Positions 12,916 through 33,578 of a DNA stretch of 40,599 bases are shown here, piece by piece. The notes below the pieces were generated by a model that was not told where the DNA came from, ran no database searches, and saw nothing but the letters and a program-made list of their open reading frames with translations. The stretch covers positions 1 to 40,599 of the forward strand of contig JANWKE010000130.1 in the NCBI GenBank assembly GCA_025451535.1. Direction: 5' to 3'. Numbering within the stretch: position 1 is the stretch's first letter; each line of letters starts with the position of its first letter. The stretch is from Verrucomicrobiia bacterium (GTDB lineage: Bacteria; Verrucomicrobiota; Verrucomicrobiia; Limisphaerales; UBA11358). The position numbers were made by a program, and so were the translations under genes.

Positions 12916-13746
12916 TTAGTTCCGCTGACGACGGAATAACATCAGTGACGATGCGCTTAAGCCCGCCAATGCCAACGCGGTCGGCTCCGGCACCGCCGTG
13001 ATGGTGTATTGGTCAAGAACGGTTGCATTGAATTGGGCGGTGCTGCTGAAGGTCGCTTGAATAGGCCCTTGAACCACCAGTGAGTCATAGGCGGTCTGAC
13101 CAGCGCTGGTACCCGTGCTGTCAATGTCGAAGTCGAAAGTTGAGCCGGGAGTGAGGTTCAGATTTGAGAGATCACTCAAGGGAACCGTGAGAGTGAACTG
13201 ATTCGGTGTGCTGGTTGAAGGCTGCATGCTAATCGGCTGGCCGCTGGCCACGTTCTCGACTTGCGTCCAGGCGCCACTGCTGTAAACCCAATCGTTAAAG
13301 CCAAAGCTGGTAAATGGGCTGCTGGCGGATCCGGAACCACCGGCCCCATACGCTCCAATCCAATCCGTCATCCCGCCGAAGGAGCTGTCAATAGATATGG
13401 CGCGGCTCCACGGATTGCCGAAATCGGCACTGGCGGAGGTGTCCCCACCGGCCGAAGGATTGCCGGAGGTAATGGCCATTACATAATTGAAATTGCCCTG
13501 AGTTTCTATGTTGCCCGCCGGATTGAGAGCGATGGTGATGTAGAGATTGTTCGCGTCATTGGCGATGGTTGCGTAGGAGATATCGCGTCCCTTGTTGGAA
13601 CTCCCCTGCCCGTCACCCGTCACGTCGGTATAAGTCGTGCCCGATCCCCCCGACTGAAATATGGTACCACAGGTTGCCGAATAAACGGCAAAAAGCGTCA
13701 CACCCAATCCGATCGCAAAGCTTTTGGATTTATTCCCGATTTTCAT
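12916..13746 (-). CDS. PEP-CTERM sorting-domain exported protein
   Basis: The 276-residue protein has an N-terminal signal peptide (MKIGNKSKSFAIGLGVTLFA) and a textbook PEP-CTERM tail: VPEPTALALAGLSASSLMLF followed by RRQRN. In this system the tail is recognised and cleaved by an exosortase, which is normally linked to exopolysaccharide or biofilm production. The mature middle part is Gly/Ser/Thr-rich beta-structure and matches no enzyme that I recognise. An 'ISYATIANDANNLYITIALNP' segment suggests a carbohydrate-binding or calcium-stabilised beta-sandwich. No exosortase gene is in the window. A copy of the regional promoter box and a -10-like hexamer lie 62-109 bases upstream, and the GH28 gene follows downstream. 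Confidence 0.9.
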   Translation of the reverse strand: MKIGNKSKSFAIGLGVTLFAVYSATCGTIFQSGGSGTTYTDVTGDGQGSSNKGRDISYATIANDANNLYITIALNPAGNIETQGNFNYVMAITSGNPSAGGDTSASADFGNPWSRAISIDSSFGGMTDWIGAYGAGGSGSASSPFTSFGFNDWVYSSGAWTQVENVASGQPISMQPSTSTPNQFTLTVPLSDLSNLNLTPGSTFDFDIDSTGTSAGQTAYDSLVVQGPIQATFSSTAQFNATVLDQYTITAVPEPTALALAGLSASSLMLFRRQRN

Positions 13747-13807: not shown

Positions 13808-13854
13808 ACTCTACGTGAGGTTGCAAGACCTGCCTAGCCCCCAAAAACTGGGGG
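13808..13854 (-). promoter_or_regulatory. Regional promoter module, copy A (before PEP-CTERM/GH28)
   Basis: Reading the minus strand, CCCCCAGTTTTTGGGGGCTA starts at 13854. The G-run ends at 13838, a -35-like TAGGCA follows at 13836-13831, then 17 bases, then the -10-like TAGAGT at 13813-13808. The predicted transcript start is about 55 bases before ATG 13746. The layout matches the four other copies in the window. Box conservation is seen directly; promoter function is inferred from constant spacing, orientation and position. Confidence 0.72.
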
Positions 13855-13975: not shown

Positions 13976-14848
13976 CTAATGCGCCGGCGTGTGCTGCGCC
14001 AGCCAGGCCATGTCCGCATTCTGAGTATATGTTCCGATCCCGGCATAATGAACGTATCTGACCGGAACGAGGAAAGGGCTGGTTGTCCATTGATGAACCT
14101 CCGCATGTCCGTCAGCAAAAGAAATTCCGCAACCACCGCCCAGATAACTTGCAGGAACTTCGATCAGTAATCCCGTTCCATTCGTTGCCCGGGGATCGTC
14201 GTAAAAAATTCCATCGTCTATGCTGTCAGGATGTTCATCGATAAACACCCAGCTCTTGCTCGGGCCAGGGAAACGAAATTGGCTCATCTTTGCCGCAACA
14301 AAAAAAGGATTAAGACTTGCAAGCGAGGGTGGCGGTTTGGCGCCACTACCAGACCCGCCCACCGGGCCGCCGACCGCCGCGTCCATGGCCACACTCCTGG
14401 GCCGATGGTTAACTTTTGCGCCATAAAACGCCTGCTGCAGAGGGGAAAGAAAGTTATCTCCCGGCGAAGTATAAATTTTATATTGACCGCCGCAATACGG
14501 GGCCAGTTGATTCGTCTTCAAGAACGTTATATTTGTGTTGTTCGGAGAAATACTCCAATCCATGTGACATTGCATGGGAATCCACGACTGAGTGCCGTTG
14601 ACGACTGCTGACTGATCGGCATTGAGCACCAACGTGTCGTTGTGATCACCGGGATACAGATACCAGGCCTGGGTTAACTGCCTTTTGTTGCTCAGGTCGG
14701 CAGTGATCAGCGCCTTCACCTTGGCGTTGGCCAGGGCCGGCAATAACATCGCGGCCAGAATTGCGATAATCGCTATCACCACCAACAACTCAATCAAGGT
14801 GAAGCCATCGGTGCCGTGTTTGACTTCATTTTGCGTTTGCAGATACAT
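13976..14848 (-). CDS. Type IV pseudopilin-like protein 1 (prepilin N-terminal methylation domain)
   Basis: The ATG at 14848 gives 290 residues: a short leader, then the class III prepilin motif 'DG^[16 protein letters not shown]' with Gly at -1 and Glu at +5, then the hydrophobic helix. The C-terminal part contains '[19 protein letters not shown]', the DG-containing region of the H-X9-DG prepilin-associated family, with the first His replaced. Such pseudopilins are processed by prepilin peptidase and assembled in, or fed to, type II/IV secretion-like machines; Verrucomicrobiota carry many. No assembly ATPase or peptidase gene is here. The protein is a close paralogue of pseudopilin 2 (15001-15888), including the leader pattern M[YE]LQ, which supports this start. 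A fragment of the starch-binding-like gene lies just upstream, showing origin by tandem duplication. Confidence 0.88.
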
Positions 14849-14873
14849 AGCGGTTTTCACGACCAAACCAGAG

Positions 14874-14984
14874 CGATTGTTCCTGAAATATATTGCCGAA
14901 AATATCCAGAGGCAAGATGCCATTACCATTGGACCGGATGTAACGGGTATGATTGATTCCATTGACCTCATCCGGGTCGCCGTT
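14874..14984 (-). pseudogene. Fragment of the starch-binding-like gene left by tandem duplication
   Basis: These 37 minus-strand codons match, by my count at 28 of 37 positions, the segment around [10 protein letters not shown]...LPLDVFGN...QEQS in the 15967-17853 protein. The preceding ~490 residues and the C-terminal module are missing. The fragment sits directly upstream of pseudopilin 1, just as the intact gene sits upstream of pseudopilin 2. A unit consisting of the 3' end of the gene plus a pseudopilin was therefore duplicated, and the left-hand gene part then decayed. Confidence 0.85.
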
Positions 14985-15000: not shown

Positions 15001-15888
15001 CTAACGCGCCGGCGTGTGCTGCGCCAGCCAGGCCATGTCTGCGTTTTGGGTATAAGTTACCCCCCCGGTTCCCGGCTGCTTGATATATTTAACCGGAACG
15101 AGGAACGCGCTGGTTGTCCATTTGTGAACTTCCGCGTGTCCGTCGGCAAACGAAATTCCACAGCCGCCGCCCAAATAGCTGGAGGGCAGTTCGATCAGCG
15201 ATCCCGTTCCATCGGTTGCCCGGGGATCGTCGTAAAAAATTCCATCGTCGATGCTGTCGGGATGCTCATTCATGAACACCCAACTCTTGCTCGGCCCGGG
15301 AAAATGAAATTGGCTCATCTTCGCCGCAACAAAGAAGGGATTAAGCATGGGAAGCGAGCCTGAGCTTGGTGGTTTGGCGCCACTACCGGATCCACCCACG
15401 GGGCCGCCCACCGCCGCATCCATGGCCACACTCCGGGACCGATGGTGCGCAAGCACGCCAAAATGCAGGATCAGCTGAAGAGGAGACAGAAAGTTATCTC
15501 CCGGCGACGTATAGAGTTTATCCTGACCGGCACAGTAAGATCCCAGTTCATTGGTCCGCAGGAATGTAATATTCGTGTTGTTCGGAGAGGAACCCCAATC
15601 CATGTGACATTGTCCGGGAATCCACGACGGAGCTCCATTGACGGCCGTGGACTGATCGGCATTGAGCACCAATGCGTCGTTGTGATCTCCGGGATACATA
15701 TACCAGGCCAGTGTCAACTGCCTTTTGTTGTTTATGTCCGAGATGATCTGCGCCCTCACCTTCGCTGCAGACAAGGCCGGCAACAACATCGCGGCCAGAA
15801 TGGCTATGATGGCAATTACCACCAACAACTCAATCAAAGTGAAGCCGTCGCAATCGTCTTTGACTTTCGTTTTTCTCTGCAATTCCAT
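15001..15888 (-). CDS. Type IV pseudopilin-like protein 2
   Basis: Starting at ATG 15888 (GGGAAG lies 10-15 bases upstream on the coding strand), this 295-residue protein has the leader [15 protein letters not shown], then '[20 protein letters not shown]', the prepilin peptidase site and hydrophobic helix. The body has the same order of motifs as pseudopilin 1 ([36 protein letters not shown]-like, [15 protein letters not shown]) and ends [10 protein letters not shown]. It lies 78 bases downstream of the starch-binding-like gene on the same strand, so both probably share the promoter at 17888-17933. The pairing of a carbohydrate-binding protein with a pseudopilin suggests surface display or export of glycan-handling proteins through a pilus-like assembly (inference). 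Confidence 0.9.
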
Positions 15889-15966
15889 GTCAATCAAGCT
15901 TCCCGTCCCACCCGGAACGTGCGCTCCAGCGTTGGGCAGTTGGTTTGACACTCTACTCAATTGAAA

Positions 15967-17853
15967 TCAAAACGGATTGATCAACCGGAAGTAGTTTGCC
16001 CCTGCACCGACCGGATAGTTCGTCGCGTTTTGGGCATCGGTGCCGGGCAGACTGGTCCATGCGCCGGAAGCCAGGTTCGCTGACAGCTGTAACTGGACAC
16101 CCGGGCGGCCCAGCCAGGTGATCGGAACGTTGCCACCGGACTTTGGTCCGATGGCCAGACTGCCGAATGACTGTTCCTGGACCATGTTGCCGAAAACATC
16201 CAGCGGCAAGGCGTAATTACCGGTAGACCGGATGTAGCGGGTATGATTTATTCCATTGGCCTCGTCCTGGTTGCCGTTGATGGAATATTGATAGGAGAGC
16301 GTCATCGGGTACCCTGCGGGAATCGGGACTGTGATCGTATAGATTTCGCTGCCCACCGGATTATTTGTCATCAGAAAATTCCCCAGCGGGTTGCCGGCAG
16401 GATTGTTGGTCCAGGGGTCAAAGGAATAGTTGCCCGGCGCATTGGTCACATCCACCCCGTTAAGATAAACGCTGTCCACGCCCGGATTGAACACATGGAG
16501 ATCCGTTCCCAACGCGTTCGTCATGCTGACACTGAAGGTCACATAATTGGTCAGCGGCGGGGCTGGCAGCACTGAGTGGGTAGACCGGTCATTGAAATAA
16601 ACCGTAGGCAAAGTCAAGTTGGTGCCGGTAATACTGGGCATAACAAATTCCCGATTGGGGAGGAGGATACCGACGGAAGGATTGCCCGGGTAGGTATGGG
16701 CGGGATTGTTTTCGTAATTGCCACCGACGTAGCCGAATTTGAATTGTGTCGTGGCTCCATATCCATTGGTAATAAAGATCGTCGTGCTGTAGATGTTGGT
16801 ATTGGGGGCGCCGGGATTATTCGTGCAGGTGTTTACCCCGGTCGTATCCCAGTTATTGAAGTCTCCGCTCAAGCGAACCTGTTGATTGCCCATCGCGCCG
16901 CTCCACGTTTGAGCACTCATATCCACCGAGAAGGTGATCGAGTTTGTGGCAATCGGCGCATAGGGCTGATCGCTGAAAAAGACAATCGGGTTCGTTGGAT
17001 TATCGGTCAGGAAAAAGAAGCGGTTATGGCTGTTTTGCGCATCGCCGTTAAGATTGCCGGGGGATTCGTATTTGGCGGTTGGCTGGATGATATATTTGAA
17101 CTGGCCGTTCTGCCCGGGTGAGCCGGCAATGAGGTTTGCAAGAAATCCGACATATACATTCGAAGTCACCAGACCAAACTGATTGGTTCTCAGGATGGTG
17201 GGATCATTGGTCAATATATTGCCGCTGGGGGTTGTGCCCTGGCCAAAACCGAAATTATTGCCACTGCCCAGACTGCCATTGACCTGCACCGTTTGCGTTG
17301 CCGGATTGAAAGTCCCCAGGGCAATCTGCTGTGACATATCCACCTGGAACCAGGGATTGGCGACGGTGAACTGCTGCGGGGATACGTTCAGCCCCTGGTC
17401 GCCGAAAAACTGAACCGGCAAAACCAGACTCTGCTGGCCGCCGCCTGCCGGAAGCAGTGTGACCCGGTTATCGTTGTAAGTCGCTGTTGTTTCATATCCG
17501 TTTGCGGCGGGGGCGCTGGCGCTAATCCCGGGCGAATAAAATTTATATTGCATTTGGGCGCCATTGGTATCGTTTGTGTCATCATACGTTCCCAAATATA
17601 GATTGGTATTGCTCCCCGCAGGATTGTTGGTCAACAGGAACCCCGGGCTATTGGTAAAGGGAGCCGCTCCAAAGTTGTTGAACGTTCCCCGCGCGTAAAC
17701 CGCGCTCACCCCATTGGTGAAGAATGAATTTTGAACCTGATAAGTCATATCACACTGAAAGGTGATAAGCGTATCTGCGCAAACTGACCCGGTGGTCCCC
17801 AGCAAAAGCCCGGCACAAAACACGGATGAAAGCACGGCAGTCTTGGTCTTCAT
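15967..17853 (-). CDS. Exported multi-module carbohydrate-binding protein (starch-binding-like)
   Basis: The 628-residue protein has a signal peptide (cleavage near SVCA-DT). It then shows about four similar beta-sandwich modules (near 28-150, 165-295, 305-420 and 438-560), each opening with 'F.V.M...' and showing 'Y.KGdF.nW'-like strands, clearest in 'VRLSGDFNNWDTTG'. This is the look of starch-binding E-set modules and SusE/SusF-type proteins. There is no catalytic motif. The C-terminal ~65 residues (ITWLGRPGVQLQLSANLASGAWTSLPG split by a loop, ending YFRLINPF) are the C-terminal module shared with other exported proteins here. The GH13 amylase lies 157 bases upstream on the same strand, so starch or another alpha-glucan is the likely ligand. 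The gene has its own copy of the regional promoter box. Confidence 0.8.
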   Translation of the reverse strand: MKTKTAVLSSVFCAGLLLGTTGSVCADTLITFQCDMTYQVQNSFFTNGVSAVYARGTFNNFGAAPFTNSPGFLLTNNPAGSNTNLYLGTYDDTNDTNGAQMQYKFYSPGISASAPAANGYETTATYNDNRVTLLPAGGGQQSLVLPVQFFGDQGLNVSPQQFTVANPWFQVDMSQQIALGTFNPATQTVQVNGSLGSGNNFGFGQGTTPSGNILTNDPTILRTNQFGLVTSNVYVGFLANLIAGSPGQNGQFKYIIQPTAKYESPGNLNGDAQNSHNRFFFLTDNPTNPIVFFSDQPYAPIATNSITFSVDMSAQTWSGAMGNQQVRLSGDFNNWDTTGVNTCTNNPGAPNTNIYSTTIFITNGYGATTQFKFGYVGGNYENNPAHTYPGNPSVGILLPNREFVMPSITGTNLTLPTVYFNDRSTHSVLPAPPLTNYVTFSVSMTNALGTDLHVFNPGVDSVYLNGVDVTNAPGNYSFDPWTNNPAGNPLGNFLMTNNPVGSEIYTITVPIPAGYPMTLSYQYSINGNQDEANGINHTRYIRSTGNYALPLDVFGNMVQEQSFGSLAIGPKSGGNVPITWLGRPGVQLQLSANLASGAWTSLPGTDAQNATNYPVGAGANYFRLINPF

Positions 17854-17887: not shown

Positions 17888-17933
17888 ATTTAAGCGTGTA
17901 CGTCATGTGCCGCCTAGCCCCCAAAAACTGGGG
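17888..17933 (-). promoter_or_regulatory. Regional promoter module, copy B (before starch-binding-like gene)
   Basis: On the minus strand the box CCCCAGTTTTTGGGGGCTAG starts at 17933. The G-run ends at 17918, TAGGCG follows directly, and the -10-like TTAAAT lies at 17893-17888, again 24 bases after the G-run. The predicted transcript start is only about 28 bases before ATG 17853, a normal short leader. Copy B shares extra flanking bases with copy A (GCCTAG on one side, ATT and GGCG on the other), so these two are the closest pair. Confidence 0.72.
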
Positions 17934-20078: not shown

Positions 20079-22310
20079 TCACTTTTCGGTTTCCAACACG
20101 ACCGTCACTTGCCGGACTGGATCGGTATCGGACTTGTCAACCTGTGTTCCCCCGCCGGGCTTTACTTCCACCGTGAAATAATGGTCGGTGGCATCGTATT
20201 GGACGGCGTCGTCCGAGCCGGAAATTACCGTCACTTTTGGCTTCACGGCGGCATAACCGTGAAGGACGACTGATTCTTCGTTGAGTGCCAGCACGACACC
20301 AACCGTTAATTTACCGGGGCCATCCTGAAGCGAGGCAACCCGTTGTCTGCCGGTACCGACAAATTTGTTCTTGTCACCGAGGAAAGCGATACCGCTTTTG
20401 CCGACGGGCGCAACGATGTAAAACGCGCTGGCGTCCTTGTCCAGCGGCGCGGTAAAACTGGCGGTGTCCTTCAGCAATTCGCCGGTGCCGGAAAAATAGT
20501 CATAAACATAAGCCGGACCGCTCAAACCAAGTTCGGCAAGACTGAAATGGACTGCGTCCGCCGGCGTCTGGCGCCGGTTGAAGGCGAAGACATACTCGGT
20601 TTTGATTCCGCCGCGGTCGGTGTAAGTGCTGGCTGTCAGCGGCGCCGGTTCCTTTTCCGCGTCGGCAATGTAGCTGCGGTCGAGCGGCACGATGGGGGCA
20701 TCAGGTTTGACAATCACGCCATCGGCGCGGACGGCATGGAGAAGATTGGCCTTATTTACCGTGCCGATCGCATCGCCGATGCCGACTGGCCCGGCGGAAA
20801 GAGTGGACAACAAGACGTTGTCGGTTTCGCGGCTCATATAAACATCTGCCCACGGCCAGATCCCCAGTGAAGCGGCCAGGCGCGAGGTGTAAAGAAAATC
20901 GTTCCAATGGTTCGTGTTGAACCGGTCGCCGCTGGTGCGGATGGTCGTCAAATTCTCGTAACGGCTTCCCTGCAAAAAATAGCACGGATACGGCATGCAA
21001 TATTGCATGGTGATACCCTGTGCCTGACAGGCGCGTGCCATGTTGTCGAGAAAAGCCTCGCCGGTTTCGACATTACTGCTGAATGCCGGGGAATAGGTGT
21101 AGATGCGATCCAGCCAGTCCTGCTCGTAAGTGATAATCCCGGAAGCCTTCAGGTAACCGGCGATGTGGTCCCACCACCTGGGATCGATGGCCGCGATGCC
21201 GGAAATCTTGTATTGTTGATGGTAAGGGCTCGCGGGATCAATCCAGCGATTGTGCGTAACCAGCGGCAGCCCGACGGACTTTTGAAAAGCGTCCAGTCCG
21301 TTGGGGAAGAGATTGGTAGCGGCTTTGTATTCCAGTAATCCGCCATAACAATTCCATTCACCTTGCGGCAGGTTGTTGGCTTTCTTTTCCTTCCCGGGCT
21401 GGCCGTCAGGTTGGGTGGTGCTCTTGTAGTACCACCATGAATCCAGTTGCATATAACGAATGGGAATTTGATCCAGACGGCACTGGTCCACGAACGACTG
21501 AAGCGTGCCGGCGTAACCGAGGTTAGTGTTGTAGTTGTAATAATAAGTGGCGCCATTATCGGTCCAGTAACCAAGATATTTCAGTACGGTGTCGGCGGTG
21601 TCGGTGGGTCGTTTAGCGTGGTGCAAATCAAGCAAGGCGCCACCCCATAAGTCCCAGGTCCGATTGATTCCCTGGCCAAATGCGACCAGGGTTTGTTGGG
21701 TGAACTCCGGCGGCAGGTTCCGCAACATGGGATTAAAACCGCTGGCCATTTCCGTTTGCCCGTTGCCCACCATGCTGGCCACTATAAAATGCGACGCCGG
21801 AGAAATGATAATGGCGTTCGCATCATTGTCGAAGAGCAGCCAGGGTGTGGAAATTTCGGTGGCCGCGAAACGGGGCGGCGCAAATTCGTGATGGCCGTAA
21901 CTGAAAACATGCAGTTTGGCCGGTAACGTGCGGAAATCCGGGAAGGGGCGCGGCGGCAGTTCGGTTGCCGCGCGGCACGTCTGAGCAAATAATGCCAGTG
22001 CCCTTCCCTCATAGAGCCGGATTTGGCCCCTCATCGGTGTCGGTCCCTCCTGCCATTGGAAGGCCAACTCCTGATAATCGCCAATCGCATCAGAACCTCG
22101 ATTGGTCACCACCGCTTTGAGGGTTTGGTTTATGCTGCCGCCCAATTCCCACGCCGGCTGTTTGGCGGTGAGCCGATAACTGCCGTCGCCTGCCTCCAGG
22201 CGCAGGGACATGCCGCTGGCAGAAGTGATAACTTCCGCTCCACAATGGTGTGCCGCCACCATCATTGCGAAGACCGCCGAGGAGAGTTGGGAAAAGGATT
22301 GAAAGCGCAT
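20079..22310 (-). CDS. Exported glycoside-hydrolase-like protein, clan GH-D-like barrel, family unassigned
   Basis: ATG 22310 gives 743 residues with a signal peptide (cleavage near HHCGA); a GTG at 22463 would add 51 residues that hide the signal and is less likely. The order is an N-terminal beta-sandwich (~25-260), a TIM-barrel-like centre (~265-600) and a C-terminal beta domain. Barrel strands include 'IRYMQLDSWWYYK', 'GIITYEQDWLDRIY' (candidate nucleophile Asp) and 'LGIWPWADVYMSRETDN', which resemble the GH27/GH36/raffinose-synthase group, but no family signature is complete. An alpha-galactosidase-like or alpha-glucan-active enzyme is my best guess. It is 10 bases upstream of the GH13 gene, which favours an alpha-glucan role. 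Promoter copy C lies 190-235 bases upstream. Confidence 0.62.
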   Translation of the reverse strand: MRFQSFSQLSSAVFAMMVAAHHCGAEVITSASGMSLRLEAGDGSYRLTAKQPAWELGGSINQTLKAVVTNRGSDAIGDYQELAFQWQEGPTPMRGQIRLYEGRALALFAQTCRAATELPPRPFPDFRTLPAKLHVFSYGHHEFAPPRFAATEISTPWLLFDNDANAIIISPASHFIVASMVGNGQTEMASGFNPMLRNLPPEFTQQTLVAFGQGINRTWDLWGGALLDLHHAKRPTDTADTVLKYLGYWTDNGATYYYNYNTNLGYAGTLQSFVDQCRLDQIPIRYMQLDSWWYYKSTTQPDGQPGKEKKANNLPQGEWNCYGGLLEYKAATNLFPNGLDAFQKSVGLPLVTHNRWIDPASPYHQQYKISGIAAIDPRWWDHIAGYLKASGIITYEQDWLDRIYTYSPAFSSNVETGEAFLDNMARACQAQGITMQYCMPYPCYFLQGSRYENLTTIRTSGDRFNTNHWNDFLYTSRLAASLGIWPWADVYMSRETDNVLLSTLSAGPVGIGDAIGTVNKANLLHAVRADGVIVKPDAPIVPLDRSYIADAEKEPAPLTASTYTDRGGIKTEYVFAFNRRQTPADAVHFSLAELGLSGPAYVYDYFSGTGELLKDTASFTAPLDKDASAFYIVAPVGKSGIAFLGDKNKFVGTGRQRVASLQDGPGKLTVGVVLALNEESVVLHGYAAVKPKVTVISGSDDAVQYDATDHYFTVEVKPGGGTQVDKSDTDPVRQVTVVLETEK

Positions 22311-22709
22311 GGGGATTGGGAATTTTTCAGGGAAACCGCTGCTGCAAACTCGTTGTCCACTCTTATAGCGATTGCAGAACAAAGTCGTGTTCGAAAATCG
22401 GATAGTTTTGGCCGGCAGAACATTGTCGTGTCGTTGAAACCAATCCGCGCCCGGAAACCCCACGAGGACGATTCTGCTGGCTTGAATTCATAATGATTGA
22501 TTATGCGCGGCGGATTATCTCTGGCCAGCCCCAAAAAACTGTGGTAATTGCGCGACAGTGCCGCTTGCCTTGACTTCGGCTCTTCTACCGGACCAGAAAC
22601 CTTTGCGCCGCCTGTACGACGGACATTGTGTCATGCGTAATGGTTTTAACTATTTAAAGTGATAACTGCAACCTGCGGTTGTGCCTGTTTCTGCTGACTT
22701 TGACTTGTG
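22311..22709. other. Intergenic region with promoter C and a long leader
   Basis: This 399-base gap lies between the pseudopilin 3 stop and the glycosidase-like ATG. It holds promoter copy C (22500-22544), and its predicted transcript start leaves a leader of about 180 bases, much longer than for copies A and B. I see no structured RNA or small gene in the leader. The 22545-22709 part, after pseudopilin 3, shows no clear terminator. Confidence 0.5.
22500..22544 (-). promoter_or_regulatory. Regional promoter module, copy C (before glycosidase-like/GH13 operon)
   Basis: On the minus strand the box reads CCACAGTTTTTTGGGGCTGG from 22544. It has one extra T and one fewer G than the other copies. 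The G-run ends at 22529, TGGCCA takes the -35 place, and the -10-like CATAAT is at 22505-22500. C and D share CCACAG, whereas A, B and E have CCCCAG. That change breaks the hairpin pairing, so a protein-read DNA site is favoured over an RNA structure. Confidence 0.7.
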
Positions 22710-23583: not shown

Positions 23584-23630
23584 ACTTTATTCGAGGAGTT
23601 TCCCTGCTGACCAGCCCCCAAAAACTGTGG
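23584..23630 (-). promoter_or_regulatory. Regional promoter module, copy D (before pseudopilin 3)
   Basis: The minus-strand box CCACAGTTTTTGGGGGCTGG starts at 23630. The G-run ends at 23615, TGGTCA follows in the -35 place, and TAAAGT at 23589-23584 (or GAATAA, three bases earlier) is the -10-like hexamer. The predicted leader to ATG 23498 is about 80 bases. The box lies just downstream of the response-regulator stop (23657), so regulator and putative target are adjacent. Confidence 0.7.
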
Positions 23631-23656: not shown

Positions 23657-24289
23657 TTAGATGCTCTTGCGATGGCCAAGGAATTTCAAGGCCGCCTGGG
23701 TCCGTGAACGGACGTGCAACTTGTTGTAAATATGGCGCAGATGCCACGTCACGGTCTCAATGCTGATCGAAAGCTTCTCCGCTATTTCCTTGTTCGCGCA
23801 ACCTTGTGACAGCAGTTCCAGTATCTCCTGCTCGCGTCGGGAGAGATTCTGATCTTCCGTGGCCTGTGGCGGCTCGCGGAACACGCTAAGGACCTTGCGC
23901 GCAATCTCGCTCGACATCGGCACCCCGCCGGCGTGGACTTCCCGGATGGCCTGCAAAATCCGCTCCGGCGTCGCGCGTTAGAGGATGTAGCCGCTGGCGC
24001 CGGCACGAAGGGAATTGAAAACTTTTTCAGAATCGCCATAGACCGTGATCATCACCACCTGTGCCGACGGCAGTAATTCCTTGATGCGCGCGGTGCATTC
24101 AATGCCCGAACGGTCGGGCAGATTGATATCCATGAGGATGACCTGGGGTGCGGCCTTCGGCAGAATACGCAGCGCCTCCTCGACGTTCCTGCAGGCGGCG
24201 ACGCATTGGAATTCCGGCGACGATTTCAGCAGCCACTGCAAACTGCGGCGGATGCCCGTATCATCCTCGACTATCGCCACGGTGATCAT
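23657..24289 (-). pseudogene. NarL/LuxR-type response regulator split by an in-frame TAA at the conserved lysine codon
   Basis: Read through, 210 residues form a complete NarL-type regulator of normal length: a receiver (1-~120) with acidic pair 'VEDD', phospho-acceptor Asp54 in 'LMDINLPDRSG' and 'VVMITVYGD', then a LuxR helix-turn-helix (LSRREQEILELLSQGCANKE...[13 protein letters not shown]). Codon 104 (23980-23978) is TAA where NarL-type receivers have the conserved Lys after 'GASGYIL'; the codons after it (RATPERILQAIREVHAGG) continue in the same frame. One base change, AAA to TAA, explains it. Possible outcomes are a dead gene, two half-proteins (a second start exists at ATG 23956, giving a stand-alone DNA-binding half), readthrough, or a sequencing error. 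It lies 86 bases after its cognate sensor kinase gene. It is the prime candidate regulator of the five-copy promoter module. Confidence 0.9.
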
Positions 24290-24375: not shown

Positions 24376-27300
24376 TTATTTTATTTTACGCCTTGCGGAA
24401 AGCAACAAAGTCAGGCTGACCGAGACTCCGCCAGCCGGTCGGTTGATAACTTCACAATGGCCGCCGATATGGGCCATTCTTTGACGCAAATTGATCAAAC
24501 CGTCGGCGTCTTCGCTGACCACCGGTGAAAGACCGCGCCCGTTGTCTTCGACGCTGATAAGCAGGCAATCTTTTCCCTCAACAGCAATTTTGACGTGGAC
24601 TTCAGTTGCCCCGGAATGTCTGACCACGTTGGTCAAGGCTTCCTCGAAAGCCAGAAATAGATTGTGCCGTTGTTCCGAATTCAAAGGCTGGTCCGGTTCG
24701 ATTTCCCGCATTTCCAGGCGGCAACGGATGGTCGTCGGCTCCAGAAAGCTTTGCGCGTAACGGCAGAGATAACCGCCAAGGGAATTCACCGAGTCATTTC
24801 GCGGATTGACCGCCCACACAATTTCGTCCAGGGCCATGACCAGATCGTGGCAGCGGTGGACAATCCGGTCCAAAGCTTCCTGTTTGTGCGTTGGAAGCCG
24901 CAAAGGATCCTGGAGCATTCCACCCAGTAGACCAATTTCGGTCAGGCCCGCACCGAGGTCGTCGTGCAAATCCTGGGCGATACGCGATCGTTCTCGTTCC
25001 AATTCGTGCTGGCTTTTCAGATGTTCCAGCCGTCGGCGCATCCGCCGGCGCATGGTGGACACGACCGCAAAAGATAGCCCTGCCACCGCCAACAGCTCTG
25101 CGCCGACTTTAAACCAGGTCGTTTGGTAGAAGAACGGAGCCACCGTTACCGCGAGCAACGCATGGTCGTCGCTCCAAATGGAATCGCTGTTGCACGCGAT
25201 GACATGAAATATATATTTGCCCGGCGGGATGTGACGGTAGATGGCTTTTCGTTCCATCCCGGCATCGTTCCAGCCGCTTTCAAGTCCATCGAGTCGGTAT
25301 TTGAACCGGACACGCGCGGGCGAACCAAGGCTCAATCCGGTGTACTGAAATTCCAGGTCCCCGCGCCCGGGACCGGTCTCGATTCCCGGCGCGGTCGCCT
25401 GACGGCCGTCGGCGGTTTCAGCAGCCGTTATTACTGCGCCGACGTCCTTCGGCCAAATGCGTTTGTCATCTGCCCGCACTTCTTCCAGCGCGACGGTCGG
25501 CGGCAAGGGATTGATTTTCACTTCAGCCGGATTGACCCTCGCCACGCTATTGGCCATGGCAAAAAACAAGGTGCCATCGTGCCCACGCCAACAATTGGGC
25601 TGATAGATAATCGCGCTGCCGATCGTCGGCAAACCGTCCGACTGCCCATAAACACTGACCGGGAGTTCGCTCAAATTGCCGCGTTCGAATTGGACCACCG
25701 CCGCGGCGGGGATGCGGGCGATGCCGGCGCGGGTTCCCAGCCACAAATTGCCGCCGGCGTCGCCCAGGATCTGAACGATGCAATCCGAAGGCAGCCCATT
25801 CTTCGTCGTGTATCGGAAAAACCTGCCATCGCGCCAGTGCAACAAACCGCCCTCCTCCGTTCCCGCCCACAAGCTGCCGTCAGGTGCCGCCCATAAAGCC
25901 CAGATTCGCCCCAGCAGATTCCGGTCCGGCGGCGCCAGAGGCACAAATTGTTTGCCGTTCCAGTACATGAGCAGGCCATTGAGTGTTCCCGCCCAAATCG
26001 TGTTGTCTGCCGCTTCCGTCAGTGCCGTGGGATGATCGCCAGCGGTTTGCGCAATGTATTCAAAGGTAAGGGTCCCGTTGGTGATGCAAATAATAGACCA
26101 GACGGTTCCGACCCAGAGCCGGCCATCCCGACCGGGCAGCAGCAGACGCGGATAACCCTGAAGTTGTGCTTCCGTGGCGATGGGTAGCCACTGTCCGCCT
26201 TCCGACATCAACAGACCGATGCCTTGCGCGCCGACCCAAACCCGTCCGCGGGCGTCGGCCATCACGCAACTATCCTGAGTGCGCGCCGGACCAGGCAGAC
26301 TGATGTTTGTGCAGACGCCGTTTTTGTAGCGGCCAACGATGCCGCTATGTGTGCCAATCCAGACGGCCCCCTGAGCATCCTCACAAACAGTATTAATCAG
26401 GCTGTCGCCTAATCCCTGGTTCTTCCCGATGATCTGGAACAATCGCCGCCGCACTTGCACCAGGCCGCCCCGTTCGTAACCCGTCCACACGTTTCCATCG
26501 TGGTCCTCGCAGGCAAAGCGGATTACGTTGCTGGGCAGTCCGTCCCGCGTGGTCAAGCGCTGGAATACGCCGTCCGCCGCAACGTGAATCAATCCCAAAT
26601 CGCTGGCGCCGGCCCACAAACCGCCGTCGCTGTCGCCATGCACAAAGTGTAATGAAGTTCGCCGACCCAACTCACGATTCCAACCTTCGGATTCAGCCAG
26701 CCATTGGCGTCCGGTGCAGCGCCGCATCCGGCCGTTGGCTTCCACCCAAAGATTGTCGCCGCCGGACGGGACGATTCTCTTTACGTTCAGCACCGGCTCG
26801 CCGTTGGTCGGCGTCAACACTTCAAATCGGTTTGACCGCCACATGCCCAGCGCCTTGTCCGTTCCAACCCAGATCCGTCCCTGCGCATCAGCGGCCAGCA
26901 CTTTGACCATCTGACCGTCCAGTTCTGCCGTCAGCGCAACGGTTCCGGTTTTCCCGTCGCTCCAGATTCCGATCTTGTTTTCGCCCTGCAAATACCAGAC
27001 CCGGCCTTCGGCATCGGCGCATGGCTGGCCTTGGGGTAAGGAGTCGGGCAGCGTCACGGTTTGCCAACTCCATTGCCCGCGCGTGCTGTGGCCGGACAAC
27101 AATTTCCCGCCGCCGTAGTCAAAAATGGCCCGGTCCGGTGCCGACCATAACATGCGGTCGGGTTGATTGGTGCTGGTGAACACCGCTCGGAAACCCGCCT
27201 GGTTCCACGTCGTCATGCCGCCATCCACCATGCTGTTCCAAAGTGTGCCTTCCCGGTCCACCATCAACCGGGGTATGCCCCATTTCAGGGAAAACTCAGG

Positions 27301-27564
27301 CGTGTTGGCGGAGTTGTATCTGACGAACCGCGTACCGTCGAACCGCAGCACGCTGCCAAAAACCGTGCCGACCCACAAATAACCCTCCGGGGTTTGGGCC
27401 ACATCGGTAACGGAGCCTTCGGTCAGACCATCATCCGCACCCCAGACTTTGACGACATAATACTGGCCGGCGGAATCATCCGGGTTCGCCATAGCGAAGG
27501 CCGACACCGTCAGGCACAGGAACAGCAACATCCAACGGGGAAAATATTTCGCGGCAGGTTGCAC
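24376..27564 (-). CDS. Membrane sensor histidine kinase with two-component propeller (Reg_prop/Y_Y_Y, HisKA_3)
   Basis: The 1062-residue protein has a signal peptide (~1-27), then ~650 residues of repeated Reg_prop strands (patterns such as 'G.LWVGT..GL..W.g..F') forming a double beta-propeller outside the membrane. A Y_Y_Y domain follows (~700-810, 'RFKYRLDGLESGWNDAG', 'IPPGKYIFHV'), one transmembrane helix (~820-838), and a HisKA_3 domain with phospho-acceptor His867 in 'RIAQDLHDDLGAGL'. The ATPase shows the N-box 'EEALTNVVRHSG' and G-box 'DNGRG'. This is the NarX/DesK class that pairs with NarL-type regulators; the Y_Y_Y plus propeller form is widely used to sense polysaccharide breakdown products. 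Its partner gene is downstream, but interrupted. It is divergent from GH127, and promoter copy E lies in the shared gap. Confidence 0.94.
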   Translation of the reverse strand: MQPAAKYFPRWMLLFLCLTVSAFAMANPDDSAGQYYVVKVWGADDGLTEGSVTDVAQTPEGYLWVGTVFGSVLRFDGTRFVRYNSANTPEFSLKWGIPRLMVDREGTLWNSMVDGGMTTWNQAGFRAVFTSTNQPDRMLWSAPDRAIFDYGGGKLLSGHSTRGQWSWQTVTLPDSLPQGQPCADAEGRVWYLQGENKIGIWSDGKTGTVALTAELDGQMVKVLAADAQGRIWVGTDKALGMWRSNRFEVLTPTNGEPVLNVKRIVPSGGDNLWVEANGRMRRCTGRQWLAESEGWNRELGRRTSLHFVHGDSDGGLWAGASDLGLIHVAADGVFQRLTTRDGLPSNVIRFACEDHDGNVWTGYERGGLVQVRRRLFQIIGKNQGLGDSLINTVCEDAQGAVWIGTHSGIVGRYKNGVCTNISLPGPARTQDSCVMADARGRVWVGAQGIGLLMSEGGQWLPIATEAQLQGYPRLLLPGRDGRLWVGTVWSIICITNGTLTFEYIAQTAGDHPTALTEAADNTIWAGTLNGLLMYWNGKQFVPLAPPDRNLLGRIWALWAAPDGSLWAGTEEGGLLHWRDGRFFRYTTKNGLPSDCIVQILGDAGGNLWLGTRAGIARIPAAAVVQFERGNLSELPVSVYGQSDGLPTIGSAIIYQPNCWRGHDGTLFFAMANSVARVNPAEVKINPLPPTVALEEVRADDKRIWPKDVGAVITAAETADGRQATAPGIETGPGRGDLEFQYTGLSLGSPARVRFKYRLDGLESGWNDAGMERKAIYRHIPPGKYIFHVIACNSDSIWSDDHALLAVTVAPFFYQTTWFKVGAELLAVAGLSFAVVSTMRRRMRRRLEHLKSQHELERERSRIAQDLHDDLGAGLTEIGLLGGMLQDPLRLPTHKQEALDRIVHRCHDLVMALDEIVWAVNPRNDSVNSLGGYLCRYAQSFLEPTTIRCRLEMREIEPDQPLNSEQRHNLFLAFEEALTNVVRHSGATEVHVKIAVEGKDCLLISVEDNGRGLSPVVSEDADGLINLRQRMAHIGGHCEVINRPAGGVSVSLTLLLSARRKIK

Positions 27565-27615: not shown

Positions 27616-27661
27616 CCCCAGTTTTTGGGGGCTGGGGACGTTTGGCCAATCCGTTTACATT
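27616..27661 (+). promoter_or_regulatory. Regional promoter module, copy E (before GH127; shared gap with sensor kinase)
   Basis: Here the box is on the plus strand, CCCCAGTTTTTGGGGGCTGG from 27616, pointing to the GH127 gene, just as the other four point to their genes. The G-run ends at 27631, TGGGGA takes the -35 place, and TACATT at 27656-27661 is the -10-like hexamer, with the same 24-base distance. The leader to ATG 27784 would be about 115 bases. The box lies 51 bases before the sensor kinase ATG on the other strand, so one bound protein could affect both genes. Confidence 0.72.
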
Positions 27662-27783
27662 AGCGAGCGGGCGCCGTTAGACGGCAACCATATTCGTCGT
27701 TTGCATTTCGGCCATTCGACACGATGACAACTTCATATAATAATCGAAGCACACCAAAACGATTGTTCGACATTAAATTCCAG

Positions 27784-29820
27784 ATGAAAACGAAATTCGG
27801 CCGATACTTCTTCATCGCCGCTCTGATGTTTGGACTGACTGGTGTTGGTCTGGCGCAACTTCAAGTCGCGTCGATCGCCCCGGAGCCGGGGCAATTAAAG
27901 GTGAAGTACTACGGACAATTTTCCGAGTTGCCCGTAGGTTCGGTCCAGCCGCGCGGCTGGATTCAGAAATGGCTGGAGCGGCAGGCACAGGGCCTGACCG
28001 GTCATCCTGAAAACATGTCTTATCCGTATGACACCTGCATGTATGCCGGCATCATCACGCCCCCATCGTTCCGAAACAAATGGTGGAAGGAATGGTGGCC
28101 TTACGAACAATCCGGCTATTTTGTGGACGCTACAACGCGCTTGAGCTGGCTCATCAACGATTCCGACATACGTCAACGACGCGATGCCAACCTCGATTAC
28201 ATTTTGAGCCATGCCAGCGGCACCAATTTCGGCGGTTCGCACTGGTGCTGGCCCAACGCTGTCGTCGGCCGCGCGCTGATGGCGGAATTTTCCGCGACCG
28301 GCGACCCGCGCGTGGCCGCGGTAATGCAAAACTGGCTTGTAACCAGCGCCCGGGAAATTGCCCAGGGCGGCCGCAACGGCGCGAGTTTCGAGGAGGCATT
28401 TTACCTTTATGGGCTGACCGGCGACCCGCGGCTGCTGGAATTGGGTCGGAAAATTTATGAAGGCTATTTGCACGACACGAATTCCTTCTGCACCATCGGC
28501 AACATCAAGAGCCGGGAGCCTTTCCATGAACACGGCGTCACGGCGGCGGAGGAATTGAAATGCCTGCCGCTCATGTTCAGTTATACGGGCAATCGCGAAG
28601 CCTTGCGTCTGGCCGAACGCGCCTACCAGAAAGTTTTGAACAACAGCCTCATGGCCGACGGCGGCATCGTCAGCGATGAACATCTGGAGTCAACTGCGTT
28701 TTATTCTGTGCACGAAAGCTGTGACATCACGGACTGGTCATGGAGCCTCGGTTATCTGTTCATGGCGACTGGCGAAGCGCGGTTTGCCGATTTGATCGAG
28801 CGCACCACGTTCAATGCCCTGCCCGGCGCGGTCACAAAGGATTTTAAGCAGCTTCAATATTTTTCGGCCGTGAACCAGGCGGAGATTGCGGCCACGAACG
28901 GCCAGACGCCGCGCTGGCCCACGCGTATGAGCTATCGCGCAGCGCATGACGTGGAATGTTGTGCGGGTAACATTAATCGCGCGATGCCGGACTATGTCAT
29001 CCGCATGTGGATGCGAGCGAACGATGGCGGCCTCGCGGCGGTGTATTACGGACCAAGCGAAGTGACCACCAGTATTGGCGGTCAGACCGTAACTATCGTC
29101 GAGGAAACCGATTACCCGTTTCGCGACCACATTTCGTTCCGGTTCAGAACGTCCCGGCCGATCGCGTTCAATTTCCAATGTCGAATCCCGCAATGGGGTT
29201 CGGGGGCAACGCTACAGTTGAACGGAACCACCTTGAGGGGCAGGCAAAAGCCGGGGACATTCACCTCACTCCGCCGGGAATTCCATGATGGCGATGTGGT
29301 GGACCTGATTCTGCCGATGTCGGTGCAGATTGAGAGATGGTTCAACAACCGGAGTGTCTGCATCACGAGAGGGCCGCTGGTATTCTCGCTAAAGATTGCC
29401 GAGGAACGCATTGAGCACACGAATGATCCGCCGACCGTCAAACCTATTCTGGCTGGTCATGATATTCAGGGGTTTCCGGAAGTTGAATTTTTGCCACAGA
29501 GCGACTGGCGTTATGGCTTCAACCGGACGCTGAAGAATGATGTGGGGAAAATCAAAGTCGTGGAAACGACAATGCCGGACAATCCGTTTCTGGAGGACCA
29601 AACACCGGTACGGCTGGAATTGCCGCTGTGCCGGCTGCCGGATTGGTCTCCGGGAATGAAAGCCGCCACCTTCGGCGAGCCCGCAGGTCTGCCGACGGCG
29701 CCGGAGCTTCGCAGCCCGGGCCAACCACAGATCATGACGTTGGTGCCCTACGGTGCAACCCATTTACGGCTGACTACGCTGCCGGTCATCCCGGCGTCTG
29801 AGTTAAGTCGTCGGGATTGA
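27784..29820 (+). CDS. Exported GH127 beta-L-arabinofuranosidase family protein
   Basis: Start ATG 27784 (MKTKFGRYFFIAALMFGLTG) gives a clean signal peptide ending near GLAQ; the ATG at 27724 would bury it and is less likely. The 678-residue product is an all-helical (alpha/alpha)6 barrel followed by beta-sandwiches, of normal GH127 length. The zinc-bound catalytic residues of HypBA1-type enzymes are present: Glu311 and Cys313 in 'HESCDITDW', and Cys392-Cys393 in 'VECCAGNINR'. GH127 removes terminal beta-L-arabinofuranose, using a Cys as nucleophile. Substrates could be arabinose-bearing pectin side chains or plant glycoproteins, consistent with the GH28-like protein in the same regulon (inference). 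Promoter copy E lies upstream. Confidence 0.92.
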   Translation: MKTKFGRYFFIAALMFGLTGVGLAQLQVASIAPEPGQLKVKYYGQFSELPVGSVQPRGWIQKWLERQAQGLTGHPENMSYPYDTCMYAGIITPPSFRNKWWKEWWPYEQSGYFVDATTRLSWLINDSDIRQRRDANLDYILSHASGTNFGGSHWCWPNAVVGRALMAEFSATGDPRVAAVMQNWLVTSAREIAQGGRNGASFEEAFYLYGLTGDPRLLELGRKIYEGYLHDTNSFCTIGNIKSREPFHEHGVTAAEELKCLPLMFSYTGNREALRLAERAYQKVLNNSLMADGGIVSDEHLESTAFYSVHESCDITDWSWSLGYLFMATGEARFADLIERTTFNALPGAVTKDFKQLQYFSAVNQAEIAATNGQTPRWPTRMSYRAAHDVECCAGNINRAMPDYVIRMWMRANDGGLAAVYYGPSEVTTSIGGQTVTIVEETDYPFRDHISFRFRTSRPIAFNFQCRIPQWGSGATLQLNGTTLRGRQKPGTFTSLRREFHDGDVVDLILPMSVQIERWFNNRSVCITRGPLVFSLKIAEERIEHTNDPPTVKPILAGHDIQGFPEVEFLPQSDWRYGFNRTLKNDVGKIKVVETTMPDNPFLEDQTPVRLELPLCRLPDWSPGMKAATFGEPAGLPTAPELRSPGQPQIMTLVPYGATHLRLTTLPVIPASELSRRD

Positions 29821-30053: not shown

Positions 30054-30437
30054 ATGCCTGACGGGTGTAAATCTCTGCGGATGAAGGCGCCAATTCAAGT
30101 GGCTATACTGGAACAGGATAATGAAGTTTGCACCAATGTGAGTCATCGGATTCACGGCCATGACTCCTTCCGCCTCGGGTGGACTTGCGCTGACGCCGAA
30201 TCACCCGTGGCTGCACTTCTGAACTTCGAGCCCGACATGGTGCGGATGGACATCAATTTACCGCGCATGGACCGAGTCGAGTGCATCCGCCGGCTCAAGA
30301 CAAAATCGCCGGACACCGGTTCCGGAGTTGGAAAAACTGTACATCCGGTTCCGGACGGAAGCGATGGTGAAGCACTTGAACCGGTGACAAGAACCCGGCG
30401 AATTAATTTTGCCAAAGATGAACACGATGAAAATTGA
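30054..30437 (+). pseudogene. Decayed response-regulator receiver domain
   Basis: The first ~85 residues still read as a NarL-type receiver: 'IQVAILEQDNEVCTNVSHRI' parallels 'ITVAIVEDDTGIRRSL' of the 23657-24289 regulator, and 'VRMDINLPRMDRVECIRRLK' keeps the phospho-acceptor Asp. One of the paired acidic residues is lost (VEDD became LEQD), and after 'KTKSPDT' the sequence no longer matches any receiver strand, the lysine region or a helix-turn-helix. The frame ends inside the sulfatase 5' end, at 30437. I read it as the remnant of a second regulator; a receiver-only protein is possible but poorly supported. Confidence 0.72.

Positions 30438-33502: not shown

Positions 33503-33578
<76 letters not shown>

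Follow-up and report, generated by a model that had tools for sequence, protein, structure and literature searches.

Response regulators of the NarL/FixJ family, such as NarL, VraR and DevR, are composed of a receiver and a GerE-type DNA-binding helix-turn-helix (HTH). The regulator analysed in this study shares this architecture over nearly its full length, but differs in having a TAA codon in place of the receiver lysine, which splits the reading frame. According to the available text of PMC4549865, the engineered construct NarL-C(131-216), an isolated output domain, bound DNA, repressed frdA constitutively and could not activate narG, while retention of the alpha5-alpha6 loop in a NarL construct resulted in weaker binding; FixJ at nifA is cited there as a counter-example. 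The output domain of DevR (DevR-C) activated only feebly, as stated in the accessible part of PMC3029386. Bacterial in-frame stops are described in the available sections of PMC7918605 as tending to be short-lived, on the scale of population polymorphisms, and carbohydrate genes are listed among the three most numerous categories that carry them. The short-lived cases (a single stop with no other decay) resemble the one presented below, although the focus of that article, in the sections available, is on stops shared by orthologues of at least two species, whereas the present stop was found in a single assembly.

The gene in question is located within a 40,599-nt stretch of a Verrucomicrobiia genome (contig JANWKE010000130.1), all of which was analysed and is hereafter called the window. 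The regulator lies beside a sensor kinase with Reg_prop and Y_Y_Y domains, and the same kinase domains, adjacency and gene order were observed in three relatives (L055, G025 and G037), with the difference that the regulator is interrupted only in the window. A literature search, with relevance judged by title, retrieved no published work on this kinase-regulator pair. The relevant parts of the regulator gene are as follows:

23978..24289, minus strand: pre-stop part of the regulator, receiver, 103 aa ending in TAA (PF00072, E 7.9e-23)
23978..23980, minus strand: TAA in frame at codon 104, the position of the conserved receiver lysine (sequence and alignments)
23657..23977, minus strand: post-stop frame, with the rest of the receiver, linker and LuxR/GerE HTH, 106 aa and terminal TAA (PF00196, E 1e-20)
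23954..23956, minus strand: in-frame TTG, codon 112, preceded by GGAG at a distance of six bases (reading frame)
23915..23917, minus strand: codon 125, the first ATG to follow the stop in frame; possible restart giving the linker and HTH, 86 aa (reading frame)

The open reading frame begins with ATG at 24289 and encodes 103 residues, after which the TAA at 23980-23978 occupies codon 104 of 210; past this codon the frame remains open until a second TAA (23659-23657). A Pfam profile search assigned residues 4-102 to the receiver, and the post-stop half to the GerE/LuxR HTH (profile positions 1-55 of 57), which is thus encoded in the regulator frame but behind the stop. The best match among solved structures was NarL (E 3.2e-31), followed by VraR (E 5.3e-31), and the stop was aligned with the lysine of the GYLLK motif in NarL (chain 1a04_A) and with the lysine of VraR. 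The preliminary description had described a NarL-type regulator with a TAA in place of its receiver lysine and had reported that the downstream half retains its frame and a LuxR HTH; both points were confirmed, the former also by alignment with homologues. It had further assigned to this half its own ATG at 23956, which proved to be the TTG listed above, the first in-frame ATG being that at 23917.

The receiver carries E8, D9, D10, D54 and T82, of which D54 is aligned with the aspartate of LLDLNMP in NarL; we take these residues to fill the usual roles of the phospho-acceptor aspartate and of the acidic residues. The conserved lysine itself is absent, since its codon is the TAA. In mapping position 23917 onto the start of NarL-C we assumed an offset of one residue between the NarL chain index and the residue number. 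A restart at this ATG would give nearly the same piece as the NarL-C(131-216) of PMC4549865 (as defined in the available text), although the latter is an engineered construct and the window product is hypothetical. As many as 61 of the 209 other codons of the regulator lie one substitution from a stop, so the occurrence of one precisely on the receiver lysine needs no special explanation; at most other positions a stop would equally remove the HTH. Compared with the relatives, the stop represents a substitution, with no insertion or deletion, outside any homopolymer, and the sequence of the closest orthologue (L055) is compatible with a putative origin of the TAA by a single substitution.

The distribution of the stop was examined using tblastn, with the interrupted protein as a query, its stop replaced by X, against the first 54 loci. 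The search yielded 54 rows: three corresponded to the window itself, one (L049) ended short of the position, and the remaining 50, representing 47 distinct genes (three were represented twice), had lysine; locus L035 gave no row. From a scan of GTDB genomes, which provided 73 loci, the best ten (L055-L064) were examined together with three stretches of known relatives, and all 13 rows contained the lysine and no internal stop. The closest orthologues were those of L055 (Pedosphaera sp. RYN_627; 86.7% identity), L056 (81.9%), L057 (79.1%), L058 (79.1%) and L059 (70.3%), two of which are among the 47 distinct genes. All five are uninterrupted, with lysine at the stop position, and a programmed stop common to the clade was rejected on this ground. 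Within its own genome the regulator had 51 matches, 23 of them with E values up to 1e-12 (some partial), and an internal stop was found in just one of these 23, namely the regulator itself. Two weak rows with stops, at C56 (E 1.1e-5) and C148 (E 3.4e-4), were rejected as broken paralogues because no row was obtained on re-testing, and the one kinase paralogue flagged for a stop turned out to have it at its C-terminal end. In the 48 other genomes of the genus, 11 rows were flagged for stops among the matches listed, none of them inside the alignment; these stops were located ahead of the start or close to the C-terminus.

Among the relatives examined the lysine is therefore intact and the TAA is confined to one assembly, a pattern which the preliminary description had itself set against its proposal. 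These relatives are, however, other species (the closest with 87% protein identity), so an intact lysine does not tell a new mutation apart from an error.

Comparison with L055 revealed purifying selection on both halves of the regulator: dN/dS was 0.091 (dS 0.67) before the stop and 0.108 (dS 0.73) after it. When changes were assigned to branches, with G025 and G037 used for polarisation, the window branch had 15 nonsynonymous and 14 synonymous changes in the regulator, versus 5 and 17 on the L055 branch (Fisher p 0.046). The window-branch ratio did not differ from that of four neighbouring genes pooled on this branch (282/277; Fisher p 1.0). For the kinase gene (p 0.034) and gene 20079-22463 (p 0.017) the window branch likewise had the higher ratio of the two, with the GH127 gene leaning the same way, though less so (p 0.069); the trend for the amylase gene was opposite (p 0.007), which probably reflects the choice of a paralogue as its best match in L055. 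On the L055 branch the constraint on the regulator exceeded that on the pooled neighbours (p 0.030), a contrast that is gone on the window branch. A mild relaxation of the regulator on this branch is thus possible, but as three neighbours show similar trends it is not specific to this gene. Alignment of the orthologues revealed no further lesions in the regulator apart from the stop at codon 104. A long-standing pseudogene is disfavoured by the dN/dS values (0.09 and 0.11) and by a ratio of changes equal to that of the neighbours. The stop, if real, is young, and the lack of any sign of long decay leaves an assembly error or a nonsense allele of very recent origin.

A repeat search of the window identified four copies of a 26-base intergenic element. 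The derived pattern, AGCCCCNAAAAACTGNGG, matched the window exactly at five places, and one further match, within the regulator gene, had three mismatches; shuffled sequence gave a mean of 0.53 matches at the three-mismatch tolerance. The five exact copies, each accompanied by a -10-like hexamer, lie within 14 kb around a single regulator gene:

13836..13853, plus strand: operator copy 1 (AGCCCC orientation), before gene 12916-13746 (pattern match)
13808..13813, minus strand: -10-like hexamer of operator 1 (spacing scan)
17916..17933, plus strand: operator copy 2, before gene 15967-17853 (pattern match)
17888..17893, minus strand: -10-like hexamer of operator 2 (spacing scan)
22527..22544, plus strand: operator copy 3, before gene 20079-22463 (pattern match)
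22500..22505, minus strand: -10-like hexamer of operator 3 (spacing scan)
23613..23630, plus strand: operator copy 4, in the interval separating the regulator gene from a prepilin-like gene (DUF1559; likely ATG 23498) (pattern match)
23584..23589, minus strand: -10-like hexamer of operator 4 (spacing scan)
27616..27633, minus strand: operator copy 5, in the interval separating the kinase gene from the divergent GH127 gene 27724-29820 (pattern match)
27656..27661, plus strand: -10-like hexamer of operator 5 (spacing scan)

Read toward the genes, the operator has the sequence wCCMCAGTTTTTGGGGGCTRG or close to it. Its 16-base core was found exactly five times in the 4.4 Mb genome, always within the window, and the five-promoter set noted in the preliminary description is therefore genuine; elsewhere in the genome there were two one-mismatch matches, compared with three for a reversed control pattern. 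Among 49 genomes of the genus, exact core matches were detected in (i) the genome under study (G000; five), (ii) G037 and G035 (two each), and (iii) G006, G025 and G030 (one each). Matches with one mismatch were scattered through most of these genomes at about the control rate, so that a lone copy means little. What distinguishes G000, G025 and G037 is the clustering of operators at the orthologous locus, which contains one exact and two one-mismatch copies in G025, and two exact copies and one with three mismatches in G037. Two exact copies were also found in L055, and one copy with one mismatch in L056, a short contig.

A hexamer sharing at least four of six letters with TATAAT was present 21-23 bases past the operator at all five window sites and at 13 of the 14 sites overall (the exception being L056); the 14 sites include orthologous ones, which makes the five window sites the fairer sample. 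The full set comprised every site with no more than one mismatch, together with a three-mismatch site in G037, and left out the three-mismatch match within the window regulator gene, a three-mismatch site in L059 and all four-mismatch matches. This spacing was matched by none of 2000 mononucleotide shuffles, for either the window set or the full set, even though the best offset was chosen anew for each shuffle. Activator sites for dimeric regulators take the form of an inverted repeat that adjoins the -35 region and keeps a fixed distance to the -10 box, and the arrangement observed here suggests an activator. Because the clustered motif and an orthologue of the regulator occur together, the local regulator is the obvious candidate for the protein binding these five sites.

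Two further observations concern the operator in other genomes. At the corresponding place in L059 (8733-8748) we found CCACAGTTTCCTGTGG, a perfect inverted repeat (CCACAG-TTTC-CTGTGG), with TACATT, read by eye, 22 bases past GGCT. The kinase of L059 is 34% identical to that of the window and its regulator 70% identical, as if operator and regulator had diverged together. G030 contains eleven core matches at up to one mismatch (one for the reversed control), and no regulator homologue passing E 1e-60 was found there.

The genes around the regulator include the following:

24376..27564, minus strand: adjacent sensor kinase with Reg_prop propeller, Y_Y_Y, HisKA_3 and HATPase_c, open over 1062 aa
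18011..20068, minus strand: alpha-amylase (PF00128) gene, downstream of 20079-22463 (profile match)
27724..29820, plus strand: GH127-type glycoside hydrolase gene, behind operator 5

The kinase domains were recognised with E values of 3.5e-7 (HisKA_3) and 2.9e-10 (HATPase_c; both Pfam), and the protein is 75% identical to the kinase of L055. The kinase, GH127, amylase and 20079-22463 genes are all open and were aligned to those of relatives over much of their length, and the order of the kinase, regulator, prepilin-like and 20079-22463 genes is the same in L055, G025 and G037. Elsewhere in the window, a 127-aa ORF (30054-30437, plus strand) adjoining a sulfatase gene matches part of a receiver (PF00072 positions 1-71 of 111, below the cut-off); it contains MDINLP, gave no HTH match and looks like a remnant of another regulator. 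Two tandem prepilin-type genes (13976-14971 and 15001-15960, minus strand) share DNA stretches of 80-87% identity, and a tRNA-Phe (gaa) gene is located at 33506-33578 (minus strand). On another contig of the genome (L131 6807-7052; G000:C99), an 81-aa ORF encoding a free GerE HTH, with no receiver match, directly precedes a prepilin-like ORF.

The favoured reading, to which we assign a probability of about 0.6, is a very recent nonsense allele in a local activator, by which the regulator is lost and its five operators are left without an activator. The main rival is an error of the assembly or consensus, in which the codon is intact in the population and the TAA either arose through faulty base calling or represents a minor strain allele that the assembler chose. 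The sequence comes from one draft assembly (188 contigs, 97.89% complete, 4.76% contaminated), and neither another gene with a stop among those examined nor decay elsewhere in the regulator gene accompanies the TAA, all of which fits an artefact. Nevertheless, the change is a substitution outside a homopolymer rather than an insertion or deletion, the neighbouring genes are open and aligned to relatives over much of their length, and the other strong family members of the same genome lack internal stops; we consider an artefact rather unlikely.

A different possibility, related to one raised in the preliminary description, is that translation restarts past the stop, at ATG 23917 or TTG 23956, and yields a free, phosphorylation-independent LuxR DNA-binding domain acting constitutively. 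The HTH is indeed encoded after the stop, ATG 23917 maps beside the start of NarL-C(131-216), a DNA-binding constitutive repressor (PMC4549865, available text), and the genome contains the receiver-less GerE ORF before another prepilin-like gene mentioned above. Against this, the codon at 23956 is not ATG, the stop occurs in none of the five orthologues, and in the comparison with L055 the post-stop part is no better conserved than the part preceding the stop. The activator-type layout of the promoters also fails to support constitutive action, as do the available accounts of isolated output domains, of which that of NarL failed to activate narG (PMC4549865) and that of DevR activated feebly (PMC3029386); a NarL construct with the alpha5-alpha6 loop, which a product started at TTG 23956 would also contain, bound less tightly (PMC4549865, same text). 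A restart is consequently improbable, and slightly more so is its extension to the locus, namely that a receiver-less LuxR protein initiated at 23917 occupies the five operators and represses the sugar locus or drives it weakly and constitutively; if true, this would amount to the birth, in one step, of a free-standing regulator from an inducible activator. Readthrough or recoding of the TAA, with full-length regulator still made at a low level, would agree with the purifying selection that acts before and after the stop, and a proposal that bacteria read through in-frame stops is found in the available sections of PMC7918605. It is nonetheless highly improbable: the stop is missing from all five orthologues, TAA terminates the regulator itself and seven of the 19 other window genes picked, and a search with an Rfam model followed by ARAGORN found no stop-reading anticodon among 44 tRNA loci, a set that is incomplete (no tRNA-Leu taa and none called tRNA-Ile). 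Recoding of TAA in this genome was accordingly rejected as unlikely. Taken together, a new kind of regulator is probably a less likely outcome than very recent loss or an assembly error.

According to the favoured reading, that of a very recent nonsense allele, the regulator would be the local NarL/FixJ-type partner of the sensor kinase and would switch on the surrounding carbohydrate locus. In the relatives it is presumably phosphorylated by the adjacent kinase, and its dimer may bind the CCMCAG-TTTTT-GGGGG operator and activate promoters with a -10 box 21-23 bases beyond it. In the sequenced genome a nonsense mutation would have struck the receiver lysine very recently, most likely producing a loss-of-function allele at the level of the strain; at most a receiver fragment without the HTH would be made, and the five operators would be deprived of their activator. 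Binding to the operators, activation, and the presence of the stop in the living cell are what we infer from the genomic data. Given the activator-like promoter layout and the poor activation by NarL-C and DevR-C, the expected effect of the stop is a loss of induction and not constitutive expression. The suggestion of the preliminary description that the regulator was lost recently fits these data, with an assembly error as its main rival.

In summary, what we describe is probably a likely activator of a sugar locus that was hit by an ordinary, very recent nonsense allele or by an assembly error. The lesion itself is commonplace; some value comes from its clean setting, with -10-like boxes at fixed spacing, an open kinase gene, intact relatives and a locus-specific operator, which makes the model testable and offers a direct binding test for the kinase-regulator pair. 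If the stop is real, a locus-specific activator has been knocked out naturally in this genome, and its sites have so far escaped decay.
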